Source: Cystobasidiopsis lactophilus (taxonomy: Eukaryota; Basidiomycota; Agaricostilbomycetes; Agaricostilbales; Chionosphaeraceae). From it: DNA of 64,000 nucleotides. The stretch is from positions 62,001 to 126,000 of the forward strand of contig BCIO01000005.1 of NCBI GenBank assembly GCA_001599975.1, in the 5' to 3' direction. A program made the translations under genes and the position numbers. Numbering within the stretch: the first letter of the stretch is position 1; every line of letters begins with the position of its first letter. Shown here piece after piece: positions 5,168 to 62,963 of this stretch. The notes under the pieces were generated by a model that did no database searches, was not told where the DNA came from, and was given only the letters and a program-made list of their open reading frames with translations.

Positions 5168-6723
5168 ATGGCAGAACGCGAGCCCCTTGTCAAGCCACAG
5201 GGCGAGGCAAACTATGGCACTCCGACAGCTCCGAGTGAAGACGCGCCTGCTGTCAAAGAGGAGAGCTTGACGTTCAAAATCTTCAGCGCCAACTTTACAA
5301 TGGGCACCATTGGATGGCAGGACGCTTGTTTAGGGCCTCTAGTTCCTTACATCCAGCAGACCTACGCCATTCCGTACTCGACAGTGTCGCTCATCTTCCT
5401 GGCTGTGTTCTTGGGGTTTTCGACCGGGACGTTCGTCAATGTGCCACTTGTGCAGCGGTTTGGAACGGGCAAGGTATGATGACATCCCTTATCATATGTG
5501 ATTCCGCCGCTAAAGGCGCACCAGGTCATGGTCTTGGGAGCAATTTGCCAGGCTGCAAGTTACCTCCCCATCGTCTTCTTCGCCCCCTTCCCTTTCGTCG
5601 CGGCTTCCTTCCTTTTTAATGGACTCGGAATGGCGCTGGCCGATGGTCAGGCGAACGCGTTTGCGGCTGGCCTGCCCTCGGCTTCTTATTACCTCTCTCA
5701 CATGCAAGGCTACTACGGTAAATCGAGCCTGGATCTGCCCCCTCTGCTTTCCCCTCTAAACGTACTTCATCAGGCATTGGTGCCTTCACCTCTCCGATCA
5801 TTGCTACCGCCATCATCCGAGCCGACCTTCCCTTCCAATTCTTCTTCTTCACGAGCCTTGGCCTCTCGACGCTGGCAGCCGTCTTTTTGGCCCTTTCATT
5901 CCAGTTCAAGGCTGAAGCGCTCCACAAGGACGAAGATGGGGAGGATATGGAGCATGAGCCTATCTGGGTGGTCCTTAAGCATCGTGCGGTCTGGGCGGGC
6001 TGCGTGTTTGCGGCGCTCTACGTTGGAGCCGAGCTCTCGCAAGCGGGATGGATTACCGCGTTGCTGTTGAATCGCCGAGGCGGTGGAGGCACTAAAGCGG
6101 GTTTCGTGCCAGCCGGCTTTTGGGGAGGGATGACAGTTTCAAGGTTCATCCTGTGGCCTCTCACCGACTATTTGGGCGAGAAGACGGCCCTGACGATCTA
6201 CGGCCTTCTCGCTCTTGGCCTCCAGTTTGCCATTTGGCTTGTTCCCGACTTCATGGTCGCCGCAGTCGCCGTTGCGTTCCAAGGCTTCTTCTTCGTACGT
6301 CCTTTGGTTCTGCGTTTTCACCCCCCACTGAAATCTCCCCTTGTGAATCCAGGGTCCGATGTTCCCAGGTCCGTTCTCTTTCCCAAATATGCTCCATTGA
6401 GTGCTTACCGCCAGCTTTCAGTCATGACATCGTTGATGACAGCGAACACTCCTCGCAACTACCACGCCGCGGCAGTATCGCTCGGTGTAAGTCCCTCATC
6501 AAGGTCAGAGTCCCTATATGACTGACTGATGAGGCTTTAGACTTGTGTCGGGCAAGCTGGTGGAGCCGTTTTCCCTTACATCATCGGCGGTTTGGCGAAT
6601 TGGCTCACCGTCTACGTCCTACAACCCACTGAAGTGATCTTACTTACTTTAATGCTTTTGGTCTGGGTGGCGTTGGTGCCTTCTAACCCCGCCACACGGA
6701 AGATTGCCAAGCCTGTGGCTTAG
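5168..6723 (+). CDS. MFS transporter, BSC6-like family, copy 1
   Basis: This is a major facilitator carrier with about 12 predicted membrane spans. The ATG at 5168 opens MAEREPLVKPQGEANYGTP, a soluble N-tail that recurs in the second copy at 15.5 kb. Exons then read FTMGTIGWQDACLGPLVPYI, the loop-2 region NVPLVQRFGTGK, a central LHKDEDG cytosolic loop, ALYVGAELSQAGWITALLL, FWGGMTVSRFILWPLTDYLG, and TANTPRNYHAAA near the end. At least six short introns are evident, and the frame closes at 6723 with RKIAKPVA. The yeast BSC6/'tetracycline-resistance-like' group is the best match by memory. The substrate is unknown. It is convergent with the Zn2Cys6 gene downstream. Confidence 0.8.
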
Positions 6724-41834: not shown

Positions 41835-43114
41835 ATGGCTCCGCCACCTATTTTGATGTACGAGCAATCGTCGCAGTTCAAGAACTGGCAGTTCTCGCCC
41901 GACAAGCTGGCCGAGCAGCGCAACCTGCTCAATCAAAGCGCCGTCTCTCGAGTTCGCGAGAAGCTCAAAGAGGAGCAGGTGCGCTCCTTTACCTCGACCA
42001 ACTCCTCGTCGAAAGTCGACTGAGACGGTGCGATCAAGGTCGAAGAAGGGCACGCCGAGCAGGCCCCGGCGGCGGCCAATGTGCAATACCTCTCGGTCGA
42101 GGACGAGATCAGCCTCGTGCTTTTTTACCTGTTCAAGATCCCGGCCCTAGCCCAGGCATTTCAGTTCTCCGACACGGTCGCTTCCACGGCCATGACCTAC
42201 CTCAAACGCTTCTACCTCAGCAATACCTGCATGGATTATCATCCAAAAAATGTCATGTCCGTTTGCCACTCCCCGCAAGCGTGGACCGAGCTTACCTCAA
42301 TCTTGGTGAATGGACAGGCTAACATGTTTGTTTCTGGCGACAAAAACGGAGAACCAAGTCATCTCCATCGCCCAGTTCTCCACCAAGATCAAGTCCACCA
42401 CGCCCTCAGACATCCTCTCGCTCGAATTCCTAGTCTCCCAGTCCCTCAAGTTCCAGTACAAAGTCCATCACGCTCATCTCGCCGCCTATGGGATCTACCT
42501 CGACCTCCAGCTCACCAATGACCACGCCTTGCCAGAAGTCGAAGCAGCCTACGCGACGGCCCATAAGCTGGTTCTTCGAACCCGACCTTCGGATCTGGAG
42601 TTCCTCTACACACCTTCTCAAATCGCCCTGGCGGCGTTCTACAGCGCAGACGCGGCGATGATGACCACCTGGCTGTACTCCAAGGCGGTGCCGGAGGGGT
42701 CGAGCTTGAGCTCGCAGGACGACTTGATGGCTACGATCCAGGGTTTGGCGGCGGAGGTGAAGACGTGGGAGAACAAGGCGGTGGATGTGGACCAGGTCAG
42801 AGAGGTGGACAAGCGGCTGCGGTTGTGTCGGAACCCGGAGAAGGACCCGAATTCAGCTTTGTGGGTTGTTCCTCTGCCACCAGCCTACTCCATAAGACTC
42901 AGTGCGTGGCTTCGATGTCCACAGGTACAAGAAGAAGGCGGCAGAGACGGAAGCGGCGTTGACGGAGCGGCGGAACAAGAAGGCCAAGCTGGAGGCTTTG
43001 GAGGACCCATTCGCGTCCGAGCCAGTGTCGGACGCGGCTCGCTCGGCTGCTGCTTCCCAAGAGACCACCGCTCTGAGACCAGTGTCGAGCCCACGACAGG
43101 CGCGTCTGCCGTAG
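41835..43114 (+). CDS. Cyclin H (TFIIH/CAK cyclin, Ccl1-like)
   Basis: This is the cyclin partner of Cdk7/Kin28 in TFIIH, needed for RNA polymerase II CTD phosphorylation. The start at 41835 gives MAPPPILMYEQSSQFKNWQF and SPDKLAEQRNLLNQSAVSRV, the cyclin H N-terminal helix pattern (W.FSxExLxxxR...N). The first cyclin fold has YLSVEDEISLVLFYLFKIPA, STAMTYLKRFYLSNTCMDYH and PKNVMLTCLFLATKTENQVI. The second has ILSLEFLVSQSLKFQYKVHH and SQIALAAFYSADAAMMTTWL. A basic helical tail (YKKKAAETEAALTERRNKKA) ends at 43114. Exon joins are clean at GTGGGT...CCACAG and others. Confidence 0.88.
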
Positions 43115-43252
43115 CAATCGATTGTTTTTGTAAACAACGCGTGACCTTCAAACAATGCATCGCTCAAAACAGTTGTTTGTTCTCTTCCATCCACCTCCCT
43201 GCCTGTTATGGCCTTCTAGACCCACTACTACCATCAATACCAACCACACAAG

Positions 43253-45424
43253 ATGCCCAACCGATCGCCGCTGTCCCGCAAGACGGCCAACCGAGTCGTC
43301 GTCGCCGCAACAAACAACAAGTCGGTGTCGGCCTCGAAGCGCAAAGCCGTGGACGAGGAGGAGCAGCAGGAGCCCAGCAAGCGGCTCAAGGCAGCGCCGT
43401 TGTCCCCGGTCAAGCAGCAGCAACAGCAGCAGCCATCGGCTACCAAAGCCGCCCGGAAAGCCGCCAAGAAGCAGGCAGCCCAGGATGTCCCCGCCGACCT
43501 CGAGGAATGGCGCGGGCGGATGTCCAAGGCGATCAAGGCCTACGTCTTCTACTTTGACACCGACTCGACCTCGTCAGCCAAGGACGCGGCGGCGTACATC
43601 AAATCCGTCGAGCTGCTGGGCGCCGTGCGTGGCGCTTTGAGTTGTTGTTTATTATTCGGCGCTGACAGCCGCGCAGACCGTCGAGCCCTTCTTCTCCAAC
43701 AAAATCACCCACGTCGTAGCACTACGCACCAACCAGGACCAACCGGCCGCTGCCCAGGCTGGCAACGCCGCCAAAAAAGCCGTCAACAAAGGCCCCTCCC
43801 CGGCCCGTCTCCCTCGAGCGTGCGTTCCATGCCTGGCATCCGAGTCCGCGCATGGTCGACTGATGTCGTTGGTTGTGTGCACAGTCTCAAGGGATCGCCT
43901 AACGAGAAGAACCCGTTCGACGTGGAATATGACATCGTCTCGAAGGCTCAAGAGATGGGCAAGAAGATCTGGCACCGCGAGAGTAGGCCGGCCCGCTCCG
44001 TTGTTTTCGCACACAGTTTGTTTACGATGAGCCTTGGACGACTGCAGAGATCGACAAGGTGCTGGGCGCCCTGTTCGAGGTCAACTCGCCCGCCAAGCCG
44101 GCCACCACCAAGCCCCTCTCCCTCCCTCACCTCCTCCGCACCGAGGCCATCTCCGGCATCACCCACGAGCGCGACCCAGAAGCTCAGCGCCCGGACTACT
44201 ACTACTTCCCCGCCCGGTCCTATTACCTCCTCGTCGAGGACTCGACCTCGGAGCACAAGACCATCATCTCCAAAGAGTACGAGCGGCCCCGCCGAGGCCA
44301 ATCACCGGAATGGCCTGTTCTCCATGGTGGTGTCGAGGGTCGAGGCGCTTTCTGTTCCCGAGAGCAGACCGTCCCGCCTTTGCCCGCTGGCGTCGAGCCT
44401 TTGCCTTTGGTCGGCGAGCGCATCCTCACCGACGAGGATGAGGAAGCCGCCTCTTCCTCTCCCGTGCTGCCCGCTGCCCAGCATCAACCGCAGTCCAAGC
44501 AGCTCATGCCGCCCCCTCCAGCTTTCACCGAAAAGTCCAAAACCGGCAGCTTGACCTCGCTCCGCAAGAACCTCCTCAAGAAGCACGCCGCCCAAGAGCT
44601 GCCCCCTCCTCCTCCCGCCGTTGCAGCCAAAGACGAGGCGCACGGCTTCCTCGCCGCGTCCGGCAACTCCCAAATCCTCACTTCCAACATCGCGTCCATG
44701 ACCTCGGGCGCCGTCCACCCCACTGCCGTCAACCACCAAGACCAGCGCCTGGCCATCCTCGACCGCCGACACGTCACCACCACTTTGCCACTCGTCGCCA
44801 AAGTCGGCTTGGCCTCCAAGCCTTTCCCCTATGGCGCTGTCACCAAGCTCAGCAAGCAGCCTCTGCTCAAGAAGCAGCAAGCCAGGCGCGCTCGCAAGAA
44901 GTCCTTCTCTCGCACCCAGGCCCTCAGGAACCCCAACCCGAACCCGCCGTGCGAGGCGGACAAGCCGGGCTACTGCGAGAACTGCCGCTTGCGCTACGAC
45001 GACTTTCGAGCTGTTCGTCTTGTCCCCCTCCTTCCCTTCACTTTGAACCCATGCTGATTCGCAATGGGGATCCTTTGAACAGCATATCGTCTCCCGCAAG
45101 CACCGCAAGTTCGCCCTGAACGAGGAGAACTGGATCGAGCTCGACTCCTTCTTAGAAGAGGTCGCCAGGGAGCACCGAGACGACGTGCCCATGCCCATCT
45201 GGTCTGACCCAGAAGCACCCGAGGCGGACTCCGATTCGTGCCACCAGCCTTCGGAGGAGGACGAGGGCTCGGACGCGCCTTTGGCCGGCGAGTGGGTCAA
45301 CGGCGTCGAGGGCGGAGAGGAAGACGAAGAGGAGGACGAGGAAGAGGAAGATGAAGAGGACAGCGTCCCGTTGGCTGGCCACTACGACGAAGAAGTCCAA
45401 GAGGAAGAAGAGAGCGAAGAGTAA
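43253..45424 (+). CDS. Dbf4/Dfp1/Him1-like regulatory subunit of Cdc7 kinase
   Basis: This subunit activates and targets the Cdc7 kinase that fires replication origins. The start at 43253 gives MPNRSPLSRKTANRVVVAAT, then a basic stretch with a short poly-Gln run. A BRCT-like N motif follows: IKAYVFYFDTDSTSSAKDAA, VELLGA and, across an intron, TVEPFFSNKITHVVALRTNQ. Exon 3 has DVEYDIVSKAQEMGKKIWH. The M-motif region is YYYFPARSYYLLVEDSTSEH and IISKEYERP. The diagnostic Dbf4 zinc finger is KPGYCENCRLRYDDFRA plus HIVSRKHRKFALNEENW, split by an intron, with C-x2-C and H-x5-H. A very acidic tail of Glu/Asp ends at 45424. All three Dbf4 motifs are in order. Confidence 0.92.
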
Positions 45425-53952: not shown

Positions 53953-55347
53953 ATGGGCTGCTTCGTTAGTCGCACCAAGCCTCCTCCTCTTGAAGAAGGG
54001 GCGGCTATTGGTCCCGTCAACGAGCCTCCGAAGCATGTAGGAGTGCTGATTGATGGGGACGGCTGTCTGTGAGTGGCTACTTTGCATTAGCTCTTAAAAG
54101 TGAGCTAAGGTGTCTAATGTCACTTCACAGCTTCCACAACACCTACGTCCTCCAAGGCAAAGCGGGAGGCCAACTCGCCGCTCAGACCTTACACCGCGCC
54201 CTCAGGCAGCTCGCCGACGTCGGGCCCACAGCCACCATCTTTGCTTGTGTGTGCACCAACAAGTCTGGCTTGAAGCGGGTGCGTTCTCGTCCCTTCCCTT
54301 ACATCTCCTCTGGATGTCGAAGAATTTGTCTGGGCCGCACAGGTATTGCATGTGGACATCGACCTGCTCGAGGCTTTCATGGAAGGCTTCTCAGAGCACC
54401 AGTTGGACAACTTCACCTCCCTCATGGTCGACACCGGCAGCCGCAAGCAGTCCGCCGATGTAAGGCTCAATTGTGCGCTTGCCCTCTCCCTTTCCTGCTC
54501 TTCTCGGGCTAACTCTATAGTCGATGGGCGCACAGCACTGTTGATATACTTCTCCACCCAAGCCGACTTGATCATCTTTGGCGGGACGCACGACAAGGTG
54601 CGCCGCCGTTCCTCCCAAAATTTTATCGGTCAGGGAGCACCACCTTTACTCTCACAAAGGGCTACGACGTCGCTTTGAACCGGTGCGGTTTGTCCACCAA
54701 GCTGTTGATCCTTCGCACCTGGCCCACCTACGAGCGCTTGCCATTCACGCACGTCCGCCTGCCCACTTTGTTCAGGGAGGACCGGGCCTACTTCCCTTGT
54801 TACCGCTACTACCATGAAGGTCGCTGTGCGTCTTTGTCCTTTTACTCTTATCTGCTCTTTCAAAAGCTGATCGGGCGGCTGTGCCTGACGCACAGGCAAC
54901 AAGAAGAAGTGCGGGTACAGCCACTACAACCTAACCCCGGTTCAAGTCCAAAGCATGCTCCGCTCCTCCCCTCCTTCTTCCCCTTCCTCCCCTCAAAAGA
55001 AAGCGCTTGCACCACCTCATCAAGGTCCCTTCGCCTCCCCCTCCCTGGCTCCAGAAGGCAGCCCGGACAAATCCGAGGACAGCTCGAACCACACCGACCC
55101 ACTTCTCCCTTCCGACGATCGCCTAGCCTTCCAACCACTGATCGAAGCCGTTCGTTTGGTTTCGGCTCAGAAGGGGACGGCGAGGCCTCTGAGGTCGAGC
55201 GTGGGAGGGGCGATGAATGGCTTGTGGAGGCATAGAGGATATGGCTCGTTCGCCGAGTACACGTCGGCCGCGGTCAGGTTTGGGCTGGTCAGGATGGGCT
55301 CGCAGGGCAGGCCGGGCACGGAGTGGATCTCGGTGGCGGATTCCTGA
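53953..55347 (+). CDS. NYN-domain nuclease with CCCH-like finger and C-terminal LOTUS domain, lipidation-type N-terminus
   Basis: This is a likely RNA-binding and RNA-cleaving protein of the MARF1/limkain type. The start at 53953 gives MGCFVSRTKPPPLEEGAAIG; Gly2-Cys3 with a basic residue soon after is a myristoylation/palmitoylation pattern. The NYN (PIN-like) core has HVGVLIDGDG, the first catalytic Asp, then KAGGQLAAQTLHRALRQLAD. ATIFACVCTNKSGLKR and LEAFMEGFSEHQLDNF precede VDTGSRKQSAD, with further acidic residues, and ADLIIFGGTHDKGYDVALNR. YFPCYRYYHEGNKKKCGYSH resembles a CCCH finger lacking one Cys. A Ser/Pro linker leads to the LOTUS domain: FQPLIEAVRLVSAQKGTARP and YGSFAEYTSAAVRFGLVRMG, ending at 55347. 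The splice around 54458-54518 is uncertain: the GT-AG intron would shift frame, retention would not. Confidence 0.75.
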
Positions 55348-55729
55348 ACGCGCCCCCTTTCGTCATTTTAGCTTTTGATCCCGCTGATGGCGCTTGGGAT
55401 AGGTTGAAAGAGGTTGATAGGACCAAATGACACGTCGACCCTTCATGCATTTTGTTGAGCCTTTTCCCACTTGTTGACTCTTGCCGCATAAAAATCTGGG
55501 ATTCGAGGTGGCCCTTTGTTCTTTCTCTGGAGACGGCCATTGTTCGCCTCGCTTGGACTTGAAAGGCCACCTCCAGGAGAGCCACAACCCAGCTCGGCGC
55601 TGAGGGCCAAGCCTCTCGACGCACGCTCACGTTTTAACGCCACCCTCTTGAAGCGCATTGACATCTTTAACGCTGTCAACTTTCGACTTTCAAAACAAAG
55701 AAGGACCAGAAGACCTGGGTTGAAGCCCA

Positions 55730-57052
55730 ATGGCGAGGACGATAGACCTCTCCTTGTCCAGCCCCATCGACATCCTCGCTTCGGCCTGCTCCAAAGGCGA
55801 CCTCTGGCTCGCCCTGCGCTGCCTGCTCACCTGCGACGTGAACGTGAATGATTTCTCAGGCTTGAGTCCGTCTCCTCTCTCCCAAGACCTTTGGCCTTTT
55901 GGCTGATTGGGCATTGTCAAGATGGCTATCGTACGTACTGCCGTGGCCAAAAGCGTCAAGGTCGAAAGTCTTATAAGGCAAACTTGGATTTTGACCTAGT
56001 GGCCACGCCCCTCTGCGAGCTGTTGATCCATTGGCAAGAGGGCAAGCAGCTCGAGCGCTTCCGCATCGCCTGCATCCTCCTCGCCCAGGACGCCGACCCG
56101 GCGCTCTTCACGCTCGGCCGGGAGGACATCTTCTTCCCGGACACCGAGGCCCGCAGTCTGTCGCAGGGTGAGTGCTCGCCTCTTTGAACTTGCCGTGGGA
56201 CAGCTCACTAACTTGTGAGGGGCTCAGACGTCGCTGATCAATTCGACTTGGCTTCCGCGGGCCAGTACAAAGTCCGTAAGTCTTCTGCCACCTCCTCGGT
56301 AGTCTCTTGATGGTTTTAGTCTGAATACTTGTTTGTCGAAGCCGACGTGCTCCAGTTCTATTTGGCAATGAGCGCGTCCGAGCTGGACAAGCACTTCTCT
56401 CGCAAGTGGAGGTTCCCCTCCTCGCGCAGCCCCAACTCGCCAGACTCCAAAGTCTTGATGAGCACAGTCAGCCTCTCTCTTATAGTTCCGGGAGCAATGC
56501 GTCGAGTTGACACAGCACATCCAGACTCCCTCACAGGCCACCGTTTGGGCACCCACACTTCCAACTGCCGCATCGAGGCCCCAGCCCAAAGGCGAGGATC
56601 CCTCTAGAGGCCACAAAAGAAAAGAAAGGGAGGGCACCAGCGACTCCGAGTACGGCTCGCCGCCCCCGCCCAAGCGTCGCCCAGCCGCTCCCACCTTCCC
56701 TGCGGCAACGCCCTATCGCAGCGAGCGCCAATGCGATCCCTCTGCACCTGTTCCTCCCCGCCAACCAGTATCTCCCCCTTGGATCAACCCGAAAAACCGA
56801 GCCGCCAATGGCTTGCCGCCATACTCGCCAGCCCGCCCATTCCAGCCTTTGATCGACGCCCTGTCTGTCACTCTCGCCAGAACCGGGACGCGCCGACCAG
56901 GCAACTCCGCCATTGCGGGCATGCTGCAAGGGGTGCATAAGGACATGGGCTACGCGTCTTGGGGGGCCTACATTGCGTCGGCGGCGTTCAAAGGGTTCAT
57001 CACGAAGCAGGAGGGCGACGTGCACGGCAACAGCTGGGTTTCCTTGCCTTGA
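55730..57052 (+). CDS. Ankyrin-like/LOTUS protein, cluster copy 1
   Basis: The start at 55730 gives MARTIDLSLSSPIDILASAC, then SKGDLWLALRCLLTCDVNVN, an ankyrin-like helix pair. TPLCELLIHWQEGKQLERFR and IACILLAQDADP form a second. A middle segment VLQFYLAMSASELDKHFSRK carries the LDKHF motif shared by the next two genes. A long linker rich in Pro, Lys and Arg (HKRKEREGTSDSEYGSPPPP) follows. The LOTUS domain is FQPLIDALSVTLARTGTRRP, GMLQGVHKDMGYASWGAYIA and AAFKGFITKQEG...WVSLP, ending at 57052. It has no nuclease domain. LOTUS domains bind RNA, including G-quadruplexes, and partner helicases in animals. The role here is unknown. Exon borders in 55850-56350 are approximate. Confidence 0.65.
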
Positions 57053-57412
57053 GATGGCTTTTGGGGGACATTGTACAATTCTTCTCCTTTTGACACCGAA
57101 AGTTGCCACCCACTGCCTGTCGGTGGGCACCTCCGAGCGTTGACCATTCAAGCGGGCTTGACCGCCAATCGCCAATCCAAGCTCGTTTTTGCGCGCTGGT
57201 CCTCAGCTGACCGATTCGAGCGTCGCGTGCAGCGCGCTGTCCTGGGGGCCTCCCGAAGCCTCAGCTTTAGAAATCGGCCTCTCGAAGGGAGAACTTGAAG
57301 AAGACGACAGCGCGCTGCCTTCCCAGCTCCTGCCTAGCTCACTCACCTGGCAACCAAACGTTACTCATCACTATTGCAAACATCGGTACCCAGCGCCCGC
57401 GCTTTCGTATCC

Positions 57413-58783
57413 ATGGGCTCTGCGCCAATTGACATTTTGGCAAGAGCCTGCCGGGCTGGCTCCCTCCATCAAGTCCTTGCCGCGTTGTTGGACAGCAGCA
57501 TCAATGTGGACGACTTCAGTGAGATTGGTGAGTCCTATCCGAGCAGCCGATGAAGCTGCAAGCCTGACTGGTTCTCGAATCAGACGGCGAGTGTGCGCGG
57601 CTGCCTGCTTTCACCCAGTCGCTCGTAAGGCTCATTGTGTGCCCAAGTGACGACCCCTCTTGTGGAAGTCCTTGTGCACTGCTCGCCTGAGGAAGAAGGG
57701 ACGGACCGAGTGCACATCGCCTGCGCGCTCCTGGCCAAAGGCGCCTCCGCTGAAGTTTCCAGCATGGGCCAGAATCCGTATTGTCCGCTCTGGGACGCCC
57801 AAGACAACTCCTACCGTTAGTATCTGCTCTCTGAAATGCGCACTCGTTTCGCACCCGCTTATTGTTCAGGCAGAGATCGCTGCTCAGATCGAGTTGGCTC
57901 AGCACCCTCCTTATGAGCCCCGTAAGGCCGTAGTCTGTCGTCCACCTTCTGAACAGAGAGTGAACTCAAACGATTTCCAGCCTCTTTCGTTGCTACGCTG
58001 CTGTCCATGGACCGCAATCAGCTTGACCAGCACTTTGCCAAAGAGAGTGGTCTGCTCCCTTCTGCTACCGGTCAAGTCAAAACTTTGCGTACATAGATAA
58101 CCCAAGGGCACGTCAGGTCTGATAGCCAGTACCAGCTTGAACCTCCACCTACCGCCCCCAAAGCCACGCTTGCCCGCACGCCCCACCAGGGCCAAAGCTT
58201 GACCGCCGCTTCTCCCAACGATCCTAGACCAGCACTGTGTCCAGCTACAAACTCGGCTTCAGATCCGATAGCTGAGATCCGGCCCTTGCCAGAGCAGCCG
58301 GTCAAACAGCCACACGTTGCTGCAGACAACTCCCTCTTGGCGAGCTGTGTTGACATTGGCCGCCGGCAGTGGCAAGCGCATCTATGTGGCGGATCAAGCT
58401 CTTCCGTCGAAACACAAACCTCAGCGCCTCCCCCTCGCTCCCAAGGGCACCAACCCATGCCCGCGGCGCCTCTGCGCAAAAGAAGACGACCGTCGACTTC
58501 GTCGCTCGAGTCACCCCCCACCAGCAGCCCCTTTCGCTCGCGCTTCATGAAGTCTTCCTATTCGCATCCCTTCGAGCCGCTGCGCGATGGGCTGCGTTAC
58601 ATGCTCATTCGCAAGAATCAGAGGCGCCCTACTCAAAGCGCTCTGGGCGGCGCTCTTCAAGGTGCTCACAAAAATTTCGGCTTCTCCTCCTACTCGGCCT
58701 ACTTGAAGGCAGCACAAGAAGCGGGAGTGATCAAGATGGGTTGGGATTCGGAAAAGCAGGAGGCCTGGGTGTCGTTGTTTTGA
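57413..58783 (+). CDS. Ankyrin-like/LOTUS protein, cluster copy 2
   Basis: It is built like its upstream neighbour. The ATG at 57413 gives MGSAPIDILARACRAGSLHQ and VLAALLDSSINVDDFSEI, parallel to copy 1's SPIDILASACSKGDLWLALR. TPLVEVLVHCSPEEEGTDRV and HIACALLAKGASAEV form the second ankyrin-like unit. The middle motif appears as MDRNQLDQHFAKESG. A Pro/Ser/Arg linker follows, and the LOTUS domain FEPLRDGLRYMLIRKNQRRP, GALQGAHKNFGFSSYSAYLK and AAQEAGVIKMG...AWVSLF ends at 58783. The spacing of 361 bp from copy 1 and the same orientation support tandem duplication. Internal splices are partly inferred from the paralogue. Confidence 0.65.
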
Positions 58784-58971
58784 TTGCCCAGATTACCTGT
58801 TCTATCGCAAATTGAGCGCGTAGCGCATTGTAAACGCTGCTTGTGAACTTCAGCCTTGGCTCTTCCGGGTTCTGGAAAAGCTAACGACCACAAATGGCGG
58901 GCTGGCCATTGACCCCGCCACCGGCCGCGAGGCTTCTCTTCTTCTGTCAGCCAAAGTCTTTGCGTCGACCA

Positions 58972-60425
58972 ATGCCCCTGCCCTCTGGTTCTCATATAGG
59001 TCCTGGAACCTCGAAAACTGGCGATGGCTTGACGCCTGCTCAACTGCTTATGGTGGCATGCTTCGAGGGCGATCTCTACCTTGTTTTACGGCTCTTCCGC
59101 ACAATCGAGTCCCTCGATCCCAACTGTGTGATAGACCAAGGTAGGTTTGAACCAACTGAGCTTAATTTCGTTCAGCTGAAGACTTCTGCAGACGGAAATT
59201 GTGAGGCTCGCCGCTCTGGAGTCGCCAAACAAGCTGTCCTCATGCATCGTACGGCAGCGATCACCCCATTATGCGCCACCCTCCATGGCTTTGATAGGTT
59301 CCATTCAAAAAATCGCGTGCGAATCACTTGCATTCTGCTGGCCAAGGGCGCGAAGCCGAAGCAGGCGTCGCCCTCATTGGGCTCGAGCTCGCATTCCAAC
59401 GTCAAAGCCGCCAAAATCCCTTCTGGTTAGCTGAGCCACGTTTTTGACTTCTGTGATGGCAGTGACCGGGCCTAGCAGAGATTGCATCCGAATATGCTCG
59501 CGCTGCCGCTGGCCAATATCAGCCCCGTACGTTCGAGCTTTCGCTCTGTTTGCCAAATCAAAGGCTAAATAGTCGTGTACCAGCCCCCGAGATCCGAACT
59601 TACCTATCATTCGATGGGCCTCGCCTGGACAAGCACTTCAGAAGGCATTTCTCCGCGTTCTCCATTGCAGACTGCCAGCAGGCCGCGCCGAGTCCCGCCA
59701 TAAGCGCTCCTCGACCTTGGGGTAGCCCGTTGCAGAATAGATCTCAGAGCCACCAAGACCTTGCGCCCACTTCTTCGCCACCGCCTACCCAGCCGACGAA
59801 CATTCGCTCTTCTTCAAGCGAAAACGACTCGCGATCACCGCCACCAATTGTCAACTCGCCGCCCAGCATCAGTCTGGTCAGCAAAGCTATGCGATACTTA
59901 GAGTCCTCGACTGGTTCCAAGACGACTGCTCCGCCACTTATAAGGCGAAAGCCCTCGGGAGTCAACAGCAGTCCATCCCAATCTCAAGCGGGCCCTTCCA
60001 AAAAGCGAACCGTGATAGAGATTGAAGACTCAGACACGGATGATGGCGGTATTGCCGCTGTGGATCAGTGGCAGTGGCAAGCCGACGTCGTCCAACGTCT
60101 CGAGAAGAAGCGAAAAGACGTCCACCCCTCTTCGGACCGGCAGTGGCAGGCTCCAAGGGGTACTTCGCCGCAATCCCATTTCTCACCCTTGTTGGATGCC
60201 ATCCGAGCGGCTACCGTGGCTAACGGTTCGGCCAGACCCTCGTTCGCCAAAGTCGCCCAAAGCATGAACGTCTCAGGAAATCAGAACCTAGCTGAATTTG
60301 CGAGCTATGTCGATGCGGCGCTTCGTGCAGGTGTGATAGAGGCGGGCGGTGCGATGGATTCGAGTCGGTGGATCAGTCTCAAAGCGCCTTGGGCGCAGAG
60401 ATCGGACCAGAAACCCCATTGGTGA
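58972..60425 (+). CDS. Ankyrin-like/LOTUS protein, cluster copy 3
   Basis: The start at 58972 gives MPLPSGSHIGPGTSKTGDGL; an in-frame ATG at 58894 would add 26 residues. TPAQLLMVACFEGDLYLVLR and LFRTIESLDPNCVIDQ form the first ankyrin-like pair, and RVRITCILLAKGAKPKQA belongs to the second. The shared middle motif is EIRTYLSFDGPRLDKHFRRH. The linker is very long and Ser/Pro-rich, with an acidic patch TVIEIEDSDTDDGG that could be a SUMO-interaction-like element. The LOTUS domain FSPLLDAIRAATVANGSARP, SFAKVAQSMNVSGNQNLAEF and ASYVDAALRAGVIEAGG...WISL ends at 60425. It is the most diverged of the three, lacking the GYxS turn before the conserved Tyr. Confidence 0.65.
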
Positions 60426-60620: not shown

Positions 60621-62963
60621 TCAAGCCCGGCACCTGGCTAAGAAGACGAACGGAAGAACGGCATCGACGCCTTCGAAATCGCTGAGATGCTTCACATTGT
60701 TTGCAGGTCCCTTGAACCAATGGCGAGCCGAAATGAGCCAATAAGCGAGAGAGATTGACATTGTGCCCAGGTAGAGGCATGCGGTGTAGTTCATGTCTGC
60801 ATGGCGGATGAGAGAATGCTCGGGCCTCACGAAGAAAGTGCACCCACTCAAGGAGTTCAAGCCTTTGCCTATTGGGACGGCAGGGAAACACAGGATGGGG
60901 ACAATGAAGATAACGAAAATGCTGTGTAGCCTAAAATCAGTTGAGTTCGGCGCTTCTCAAATGGACGCAACGTACACCGACACCCAGTTGATGAAAATCG
61001 AGTATCTGCCCAGGTTCCAAGGACCTGGGATAAACTTCTGCTTGCCGGTGTGGTGGCTGTAGAGCTTGATAGCGACGGGCCAGGTAAAAGCCATGAACTG
61101 GGCGATGCAGACCAGGGAGAAGACGGCGAACACGGCGACTTCGGACGCCAAAGCCAGAAGACCAACACTGCAGAGACAATGCGTTAGTACATGTTTGTAG
61201 GAAAACAGAAAGAAACTCGTGCCTCGCTCCATAGACCCAAATCACGATCACGGCACGAGCCGGAGTCTTAGTGCGCTGGTTAACAACGGCGAGCCACTTC
61301 GATCCGGGAAGGCAGCCTGGCGAAGTACATTGAGATCACTCCTATGCAACAGTTTTCAGAGACTCTTACCGTCTCTGGCGTATGCGAAGGCCATTCTCGA
61401 AGATGCCGTGAAGCAGCCCATGCCGCAGGTCCAGATGCTGATGCAGCATAGGATAATCATCGCAAGGGCCGCCGGCTTGTTCAACAGGGTAACAAAGTAG
61501 CCGGCCAGAGGCTGGCTGTAGTCCTCGAAGCTGCGCAGGCAGTGAGGTTTCATCATGTGCCAAATCGACGGCGCACTCACATGCTTTGATAGTCCCAGAT
61601 GGTGTAAGCAAAAACAATGCCGACGACCCAGCCAAGAATCTGCAAATAGCGAGTGAGCGCAGGGGTATCGAAGCCTGCATCCAGACGTACCGCAGTGGTG
61701 ACCACCGTGCCCACAATGGCCCGCGGCACAGATCGAGAAGCATCAGAGCACTCTTCAGACAGATGAAAGGGCGCGTCACAGCCGGCTAGACAGAAGACAA
61801 CACCGAGGAACGAGCTGATAAACGCAAAGCCATCGGGCCAGCCTGTTGCGCCTCGTCAGTTTGGCATCAAACGCGCCAGAGAGCCAGCAAGACGAACCGG
61901 TGCCATTGATGAAGGACCCGCTGCCCCAAACCGTACTAGTCGTTTGGAATTTGGGCTCGTGGGTGGTAGCGGACGGCATCACGGCGATCCAGACAAAAAT
62001 CAGCACGACTTGCACGGTGGCTCCGGCCGTACTGGGACACATTCTCAACTTCCTGTTAGAACAAATGGCCACAATACACCTACTTCACATACGCCAGGTA
62101 TCGAGTAGGCATGATGGCAAGGCAGGCGTCTGTTACGAAGAATAAGGATCAACTTTGAGCGAAGGCAAGCCGTTCAGAATCGCAAACTTACGCATAGTTT
62201 GTGCCGACAAGTACACCAAGTAGGTTTGCCATGCAGTGGGCGTAAAGTCGTAATAGAAAGACGCGCAGGCCATCTGTCCATGGATGCGTCAGTCGCAAGT
62301 AAAGAGAGAGGCAGGACGGTCTCCATACAATGAATGAAGCGAAAATCCAATTGGTGGATGGTGCACAAGTTGCCTGGCCAAGCATGTTGTGCCAGCCTGC
62401 TCGTGGTGATGAGCACCCAGTCACGAAGCAGTAGCCCATGCCAAAACTGACCAGCGATCCACGCGCAAATGGGGCCATAGCCGGGAGGAGCCAGGCGATA
62501 GGAGGCGTAGTACAAGCCACCAGCGGTGGGCATAGAGGATGCCAGCTCGCCCATGGACATGAAGACGCAGATGGCGAAGATTGAAGTCAGAGGCCACGCC
62601 CAAACCAACCCCGCATATCCGGAGTATCCGATGGTGGCATAAAGAGAGCCGGCAATGCCGACGAAGAGACCAGTAACGGCAAATGACAGGCAGTAGACCG
62701 TGAATGTGTTGAACTCGCGCTGGGTGGCGAATCGGATTAAAATAAATCTGCGGTGAGCAAAAGGGAAGCCAACCTTGAACTCAGCACGGTAACCTGATGC
62801 GCACAGCTCTGTTAGCCTGTACCTAGAGTCAAGTGAGTAGATCGCACCCACCCAGAGACTCGAGGTGGTCGTTGTCCGCTGCATGGGTCGCGCTCAGTCT
62901 GCTGAGGGATTCGCCGCTGTCAGCTACCGAAGCAACGCCAGTGTCAACTTCGTCTTTGCCCAT
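60621..62963 (-). CDS. APC-superfamily amino acid permease (GABA/choline permease type), copy 3
   Basis: The start at 62963 gives MGKDEVDTGVASVADSGESL and, after splicing, NDHLESLGYRAEFK, the subfamily's pre-TM1 signature. TM1-TM3 follow: NTFTVYCLSFAVTGLFVGIA, FAICVFMSMGELASSMPTAG and GLYYASYRLAPPGYGPICAW. Late exons have SSRMAFAYARDGK, AVFAVFSLVCIAQFMAFTWP, KLYSHHTGKQKFIPGPWNLG and RYSIFINWVSVYVA, then FVIFIVPILCFPAVPIG in the last spans. The C-terminus continues through MNYTACLYLGTMSISLAYWL to a stop at 60621. It is more distant from the copies at 2.0 and 30.5 kb than those are from each other (GKQKFIPGPWNLGR is typical of another fungal permease branch). Confidence 0.8.

Follow-up and report, generated by a model that had tools for sequence, protein, structure and literature searches.

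Gene structures of the cluster

A 64-kb stretch of DNA from the basidiomycete Cystobasidiopsis lactophilus (contig BCIO01000005.1, positions 62,001–126,000; the whole stretch is referred to as the window hereafter, and positions are counted from its first letter) contains a compact cluster of four genes at positions 53953–60425. The cluster is described by four successive intron-containing gene models on the + strand, which were built by hand and have no internal stop codons. All four genes were found to end in one common domain of about 70 residues. In each gene, the last exon holds the whole domain and most of the linker before it (Table 1). The spacing between the neighbouring genes is 110–382 bp, and the introns are 48–134 bp long. 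The introns look spliceosomal, as expected of a eukaryote, and their small size and the DUF7923 gene described below make a fungal source likely by themselves.

The splice sites were picked by hand based on the GT-AG signals, the reading frames, and the similarity among the paralogues; for gene 1, features of DUF7923-type sequences were also used. Among genes 2–4, exon 2 is 168 bp long in all three, exon 3 is 48, 48, and 51 bp long, respectively, and introns 1–3 are all in phase 1. Since these features were partly used when the splice sites were picked, the agreement indicates consistency and is not a proof. The least certain junctions are 55865/56000 and 56451/56516 in gene 2, and the start codon of gene 4 may be located at 58894 or at an in-frame ATG further on. 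For gene 1, the score for the DUF7923 family (PF25540) was 82.1 bits on the spliced protein vs 16.2 bits (E 0.0094) on one unspliced open reading frame (ORF). This support for the gene model is not fully independent, because DUF7923-type sequences guided one of the splice choices.

Table 1. Genes and domains of the four-gene cluster (positions in the window)
Feature	Position	Strand	Structure or basis
Gene 1	53953–55347	+	6 exons, 362 residues: 53953–54068, 54131–54278, 54343–54472, 54521–54597, 54660–54825, 54896–55347; DUF7923 (residues 27–195), C-x8-C-x4-C-x3-H from residue 204, low-complexity linker, C-terminal domain
Gene 2	55730–57052	+	5 exons, 332 residues: 55730–55865, 56000–56167, 56228–56275, 56342–56451, 56516–57052; ankyrin-like N-terminus, LDxHF motif, linker, C-terminal domain
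Gene 3	57413–58783	+	5 exons, 358 residues: 57413–57527, 57648–57815, 57874–57921, 57981–58049, 58107–58783; architecture as gene 2
Gene 4	58894–60425	+	4 exons, 435 residues: 58894–59140, 59258–59425, 59476–59526, 59584–60425; as gene 2 but more diverged, linker longer
C-terminal domain, copy 1	55126–55344	+	Four-copy alignment, AlphaFold2
C-terminal domain, copy 2	56840–57049	+	Four-copy alignment, profile searches
C-terminal domain, copy 3	58571–58780	+	Four-copy alignment, profile searches; single-sequence hhalign to bacterial OST-HTH 22.3
C-terminal domain, copy 4 (most diverged)	60180–60395	+	Leave-one-out E 9.1e-9, AlphaFold2
Ankyrin-like module and LDxHF segment, gene 2	55730–56451	+	Alignment of three
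Ankyrin-like module and LDxHF segment, gene 3	57413–58049	+	Alignment of three
Ankyrin-like module and LDxHF segment, gene 4	58894–59526 and start of last exon	+	Alignment of three

The common C-terminal domain

The C-terminal domains of the four genes (hereafter the tails) can be aligned over 75 columns with 28–33% identity to the first row. Ten columns are invariant: F, P, L, Arg-Pro, Tyr, Ala, Gly, Trp, and Ser. Profiles made from any three copies were searched against the 1611 ORFs (six frames, 25 residues or more) in the window. The omitted copy was recovered at E 1.5e-17, 3.4e-17, 1.3e-17, and 9.1e-9 (the last for copy 4), and the best other ORF in any of the four runs reached E 0.59. 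BLASTP of gene 1 over the tail region also gave E 9e-11, 3e-11, and 2e-8 for genes 2, 3, and 4, respectively. Therefore, the common tail is not due to chance, and the four same-strand genes with a common C-terminal domain, which a preliminary description of this DNA had reported, were confirmed together with the conserved residues named there (the Arg-Pro, the Tyr, and the closing Trp and Ser). With the four-copy profile, the four ORFs were found at E ≤ 2.5e-30 in the same search space. The next ORF of the 1611 had E of at least 1.8, so that no fifth copy was detected in the window, although this search might miss one that is interrupted by an intron. Beyond the closing W-x-S-x motif, genes 1, 2, 3, and 4 have 3, 1, 1, and 14 residues, respectively. 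Since the domain is confined to the last exon with most of the linker, it would spread easily by exon-scale duplication.

N-terminal modules of the four genes

The preliminary description had assumed four different N-terminal modules. This idea was rejected by BLASTP comparisons, in which genes 2–4 were found to share one module: genes 2 and 3 matched over the whole length (E 1e-35 over 370 columns), and the N-terminus of gene 4 matched those of genes 2 and 3 at E 2e-18 and 2e-10, respectively. The tails of genes 4 and 2 were matched separately at E 5e-6 or better. Judging from these similarities, genes 2–4 are tandem paralogues, and the local expansion that had been suggested for the cluster holds for these three genes.

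The N-termini of genes 2–4 have about 70 residues in common, in which two degenerate ankyrin-like units can be recognized by eye. When a profile of the three N-termini was searched against the PDB, tankyrase-1 came first (E 2.6e-6 summed over the repeats), and nine of the ten matches listed are named as tankyrase or ankyrin-repeat proteins. The best single stretches are weak (independent E-values of about 6–10), and for this reason the ankyrin-type assignment is likely but not certain. No Pfam ankyrin match was listed for these genes at E ≤ 10. After the ankyrin-like part, genes 2–4 carry a conserved segment ending in L-x6-LD(K/Q)HF (57981–58049 in gene 3), for which no Pfam family was listed.

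Gene 1 has only the tail in common with genes 2–4. Its N-terminal part matched DUF7923 at E 5.8e-23 (82.1 bits vs a cut-off of 24.5) and spans nearly the whole profile (positions 5–185 of 185). DUF7923 is regarded as a fungal family. The domain was matched in none of 100 bacterial genomes and none of 14 controls, a result that does not show its absence, and no paper naming the family was found in the open-access literature searched. Downstream of this domain, a regular expression found one CCCH-type pattern, which is usually an RNA-binding module. At E ≤ 10, no Pfam zinc-finger match was listed for gene 1; no Pfam NYN match was listed, no RNA recognition motif was found, and the gene has one winged helix.

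According to the preliminary description, one member of the cluster has a nuclease domain and three lack it. An extra domain, which may be a nuclease, is present in gene 1, and no nuclease domain was found in genes 2–4. When the DUF7923 sequence of gene 1 was compared with 26 NYN sequences by hhalign, the score was 20.4, while 100 shuffles reached up to 19.9, the reversed sequence 18.9, and FUR 17.7. The similarity to NYN is thus at about the level of the best shuffle and is not significant. In the alignment, SRKQSADVRLNFD and GGTHD are paired with NYN stretches containing acidic residues, which is suggestive only.

The cluster might simply reflect tandem duplication and divergence, with ankyrin-like genes 2–4 lying beside a DUF7923 gene and no joint pathway among the four. 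The tandem paralogy of genes 2–4 is in line with this explanation, and an identity of about 30% suggests old duplications. However, gene 1, with its other architecture, ends in the same tail, and no further copy was found among the ORFs of the 64 kb; therefore, either domain sharing within the cluster or chance retention would be needed. We consider this explanation unlikely.

Predicted fold of the tail

AlphaFold2 models were made with copies 1 and 4 as the first sequences and the other copies as alignment rows. Copy 1 was confidently predicted to be a winged helix, with a mean predicted local distance difference test score (pLDDT) of 93.2 and a predicted template modelling score (pTM) of 0.81. 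Its elements are helices 3–16, 23–30, 33–36, and 42–51 and strands 55–59 and 66–70, and the invariant Tyr (residue 45) sits in the last helix. Copy 4 was also predicted to be a winged helix, and its model is a fair one (mean pLDDT 81.5, pTM 0.69).

Possible relationship of the tail to the OST-HTH/LOTUS domain

The preliminary description had assigned the tail to the LOTUS (OST-HTH) domain. When the tail profile was compared with 35 bacterial OST-HTH sequences by hhalign, the score was 26.8, with a probability of 60.8% and P 8.2e-5 for a single comparison. This modest match is above the maximum of 100 column-shuffles (17.7) and above three winged-helix families used as controls (MarR 12.4, HTH_5 9.4, and FUR 13.7). 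OST-HTH domains are marked by a Ghxph motif and by an inserted helical stretch that separates helices 2 and 3 (PMC2848206). A Ghxph-like motif is found in copies 1–3 (GYGSF, GYASW, and GFSSY, respectively), and the model of copy 1 has a short insert helix (33–36) between helices 2 and 3. The loose Ghxph pattern is present in 33 of the 35 bacterial sequences, and the hhalign alignment places RGYGSF of the tail beside YGYxKL of OST-HTH, that is, in the Ghxph region described for the family (PMC2848206). The LOTUS domain is conserved in fungi according to PMC5458760.

Various observations weigh against this relationship. For none of the four copies was a match to the Pfam OST-HTH family (PF12872) listed at E ≤ 10 (the HMMER filters discard most matches above about E 0.1), and the tail profile gave no match at E ≤ 10 in a PDB sequence search. 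In hhalign, 19.7 over 11 columns was reached with an NYN profile, more than with the other controls, although NYN has no winged-helix fold. As single sequences against OST-HTH, copies 2 and 4 scored 9.4 and 10.5, which is no signal; copy 1 scored 17.7, equal to the profile-shuffle maximum; and only copy 3 (22.3) was above it. With 30 random subsets of 12 OST-HTH rows, the score varied from 11.9 to 31.5, with a median of 18.8 and a median probability of 6.9%. The comparison with animal LOTUS fragments gave 10.0 (shuffles up to 15.4), which is no match, in a setting where an accepted bacterial–animal pair scored only 15.8. Copy 4 has NLAEF at the motif site, without the G of the motif, and has no insert helix. 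The survey text on the eukaryotic holders of OST-HTH names them without fungi, although Aspergillus nidulans appears among the abbreviations of its Figure 1 (PMC2848206). In Foldseek searches, neither model gave a match at E ≤ 0.001, and no LOTUS chain was among the best 50 of 791 matches for copy 1. Among the best 50 of 910 matches for copy 4, 11 Oskar LOTUS chains were found (best rank 5 by E-value, TMq 0.43–0.52), and chains of the origin recognition complex (ORC; TMq up to 0.78) and KAT6A (TMq 0.71, rank 10) were superposed better than these.

The Foldseek results bring in another explanation, in which the tail, a generic winged helix resembling those of ORC, KAT6A, or linker histones, binds DNA or chromatin and is akin to LOTUS by fold only, and the four genes encode chromatin or transcription proteins. 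ORC chains were on top for copy 1, with the KAT6A winged-helix domain at rank 16 (TMq 0.63), and a putative bacterial DNA-binding protein was at rank 1 for copy 4. A sub-threshold Linker_histone match was also seen for copy 4 (E 0.02 alone and 0.26 in the whole exon). As far as the predicted models go, Foldseek does not single out LOTUS, and the ORC winged helices are the best superposed among the named matches. Nevertheless, the ORC ranking is not decisive and is expected even for a true OST-HTH domain, because the winged helix of CDC6 was the top DALI match of a solved OST-HTH structure (PMC2848206). Besides, the tail profile scored 12.4 against one H5 sequence (shuffle maximum 14.8) vs 26.8 against OST-HTH, and the CCCH pattern of gene 1 usually denotes RNA binding. 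We regard the generic winged helix as rather doubtful, while giving it serious weight.

Returning to the OST-HTH assignment, the tail has in common with OST-HTH/LOTUS (PF12872) the winged-helix topology (from the models of copies 1 and 4), the Ghxph-like motif in copies 1–3, the insert helix in copy 1, and the co-occurrence with ankyrin-like modules, a CCCH pattern, and a possible nuclease. Two features set the tail apart from OST-HTH/LOTUS: the invariant Arg-Pro before helix 2 and the W(V/I)S(L/V) strand that closes the domain. Neither was seen at the corresponding position of the 35 bacterial sequences; one of the 35 has WVSL, but before helix 2. One refuting outcome named in the preliminary description required the lack of a significant profile match and the lack of a winged helix together, and only the former was found. 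The identity is plausible from the profile comparison and the models but not established, and the tail is better called OST-HTH-like than a member of the family.

Possible functions of the cluster

Based on these results, we tentatively propose, at somewhat less than even chances, that the cluster is organized around one common OST-HTH-like C-terminal winged helix, with gene 1 as an RNA-directed, nuclease-like member and genes 2–4 as nuclease-free adaptors or competitors. In this proposal, the winged helix of the tail would bind RNA or RNA–protein complexes and would serve as a common recognition tail. Gene 1, which joins the tail with the CCCH-type finger and the possibly nuclease-like domain, might cut or hold the bound RNA. 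For genes 2–4, in which no nuclease was detected and the N-terminus is likely an ankyrin-type protein-binding module, we infer a role in recruiting partners to the same class of RNA or in competing with gene 1. A more specific version, in which a DUF7923-CCCH nuclease and three ankyrin adaptors act on the same RNAs through one divergent LOTUS-type tail as an RNA-silencing or mRNA-decay module, seems quite improbable.

The winged helix might instead be a protein-docking module, as extended LOTUS (eLOTUS) domains are for the Vasa helicase, which they bind and stimulate (PMC5458760). However, Vasa binding requires a C-terminal extension, and fungal LOTUS domains appear to lack it (PMC5458760). 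Genes 1–3 end 1–3 residues past the closing motif, which disfavours docking of the Vasa type. The helical extension of eLOTUS was not found in gene 4 either: of its 14 additional residues, 5 are in the folded piece, and these are not helical. We give this explanation only a slight chance.

The proposed RNA-directed cluster has partial counterparts among known systems. OST-HTH has already been described as fused with CCCH, with a nuclease domain, and, in plants, with ankyrin repeats (PMC2848206), and human MARF1, which has an NYN-like domain and LOTUS domains, is an endoribonuclease (PMC6294520). With its possibly nuclease-like N-terminal domain and C-terminal winged helix, gene 1 resembles MARF1/limkain b1 and the bacterial NYN-OST-HTH proteins, but it differs from them in having DUF7923 and no detectable NYN domain, and in its single winged helix with no RNA recognition motif found. 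Genes 2–4, like the plant ankyrin-OST-HTH fusions (PMC2848206), join an ankyrin-like module and a winged helix; unlike those, they have only about two degenerate repeats by eye, the LDxHF segment, and three tandem copies. Each pairing of modules resembles one already described (PMC2848206), and the new feature is the arrangement of one possibly nuclease-like gene and three nuclease-free neighbours around one divergent tail. No account of this arrangement, and no paper dealing with both OST-HTH and a basidiomycete, was found in the open-access literature searched. Should the tail prove to be a genuine OST-HTH domain, it would represent a divergent branch that is missed by the Pfam model, occurs with DUF7923-CCCH and ankyrin-like modules in the same proteins, and was expanded side by side. 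It has been pointed out that LOTUS domains would be interesting to investigate in bacteria, fungi, and plants (PMC5458760), and a cluster with one possibly nuclease-like member and three nuclease-free members would be a handy system for the domain's own role.

Searches for relatives and other features of the window

No usable relatives were found in scans of viral contigs or, with copy 1 as the query, of genome contigs; such scans are seeded by short peptides matched exactly and can detect only close relatives. A single tblastn match to copy 3 in an IMG/VR viral contig (L002, 5001–5183) was judged to be a chance match, because it lies inside a tape-measure-like phage ORF of 968 residues. Similar WISL-type tail endings presumably exist in other basidiomycete proteins.

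Outside the cluster, an exon on the + strand at 5722–6522 matched MFS_1 (E 6e-9), and a + strand ORF at 42310–43554 matched Cyclin_C_2 (E 7.3e-15). The latter is probably a cyclin of the cyclin H/Ccl1 type. Downstream of the cluster, the − strand carries an amino-acid permease gene, of which an exon at 62177–62893 matched AA_permease_2 (E 7.4e-8).

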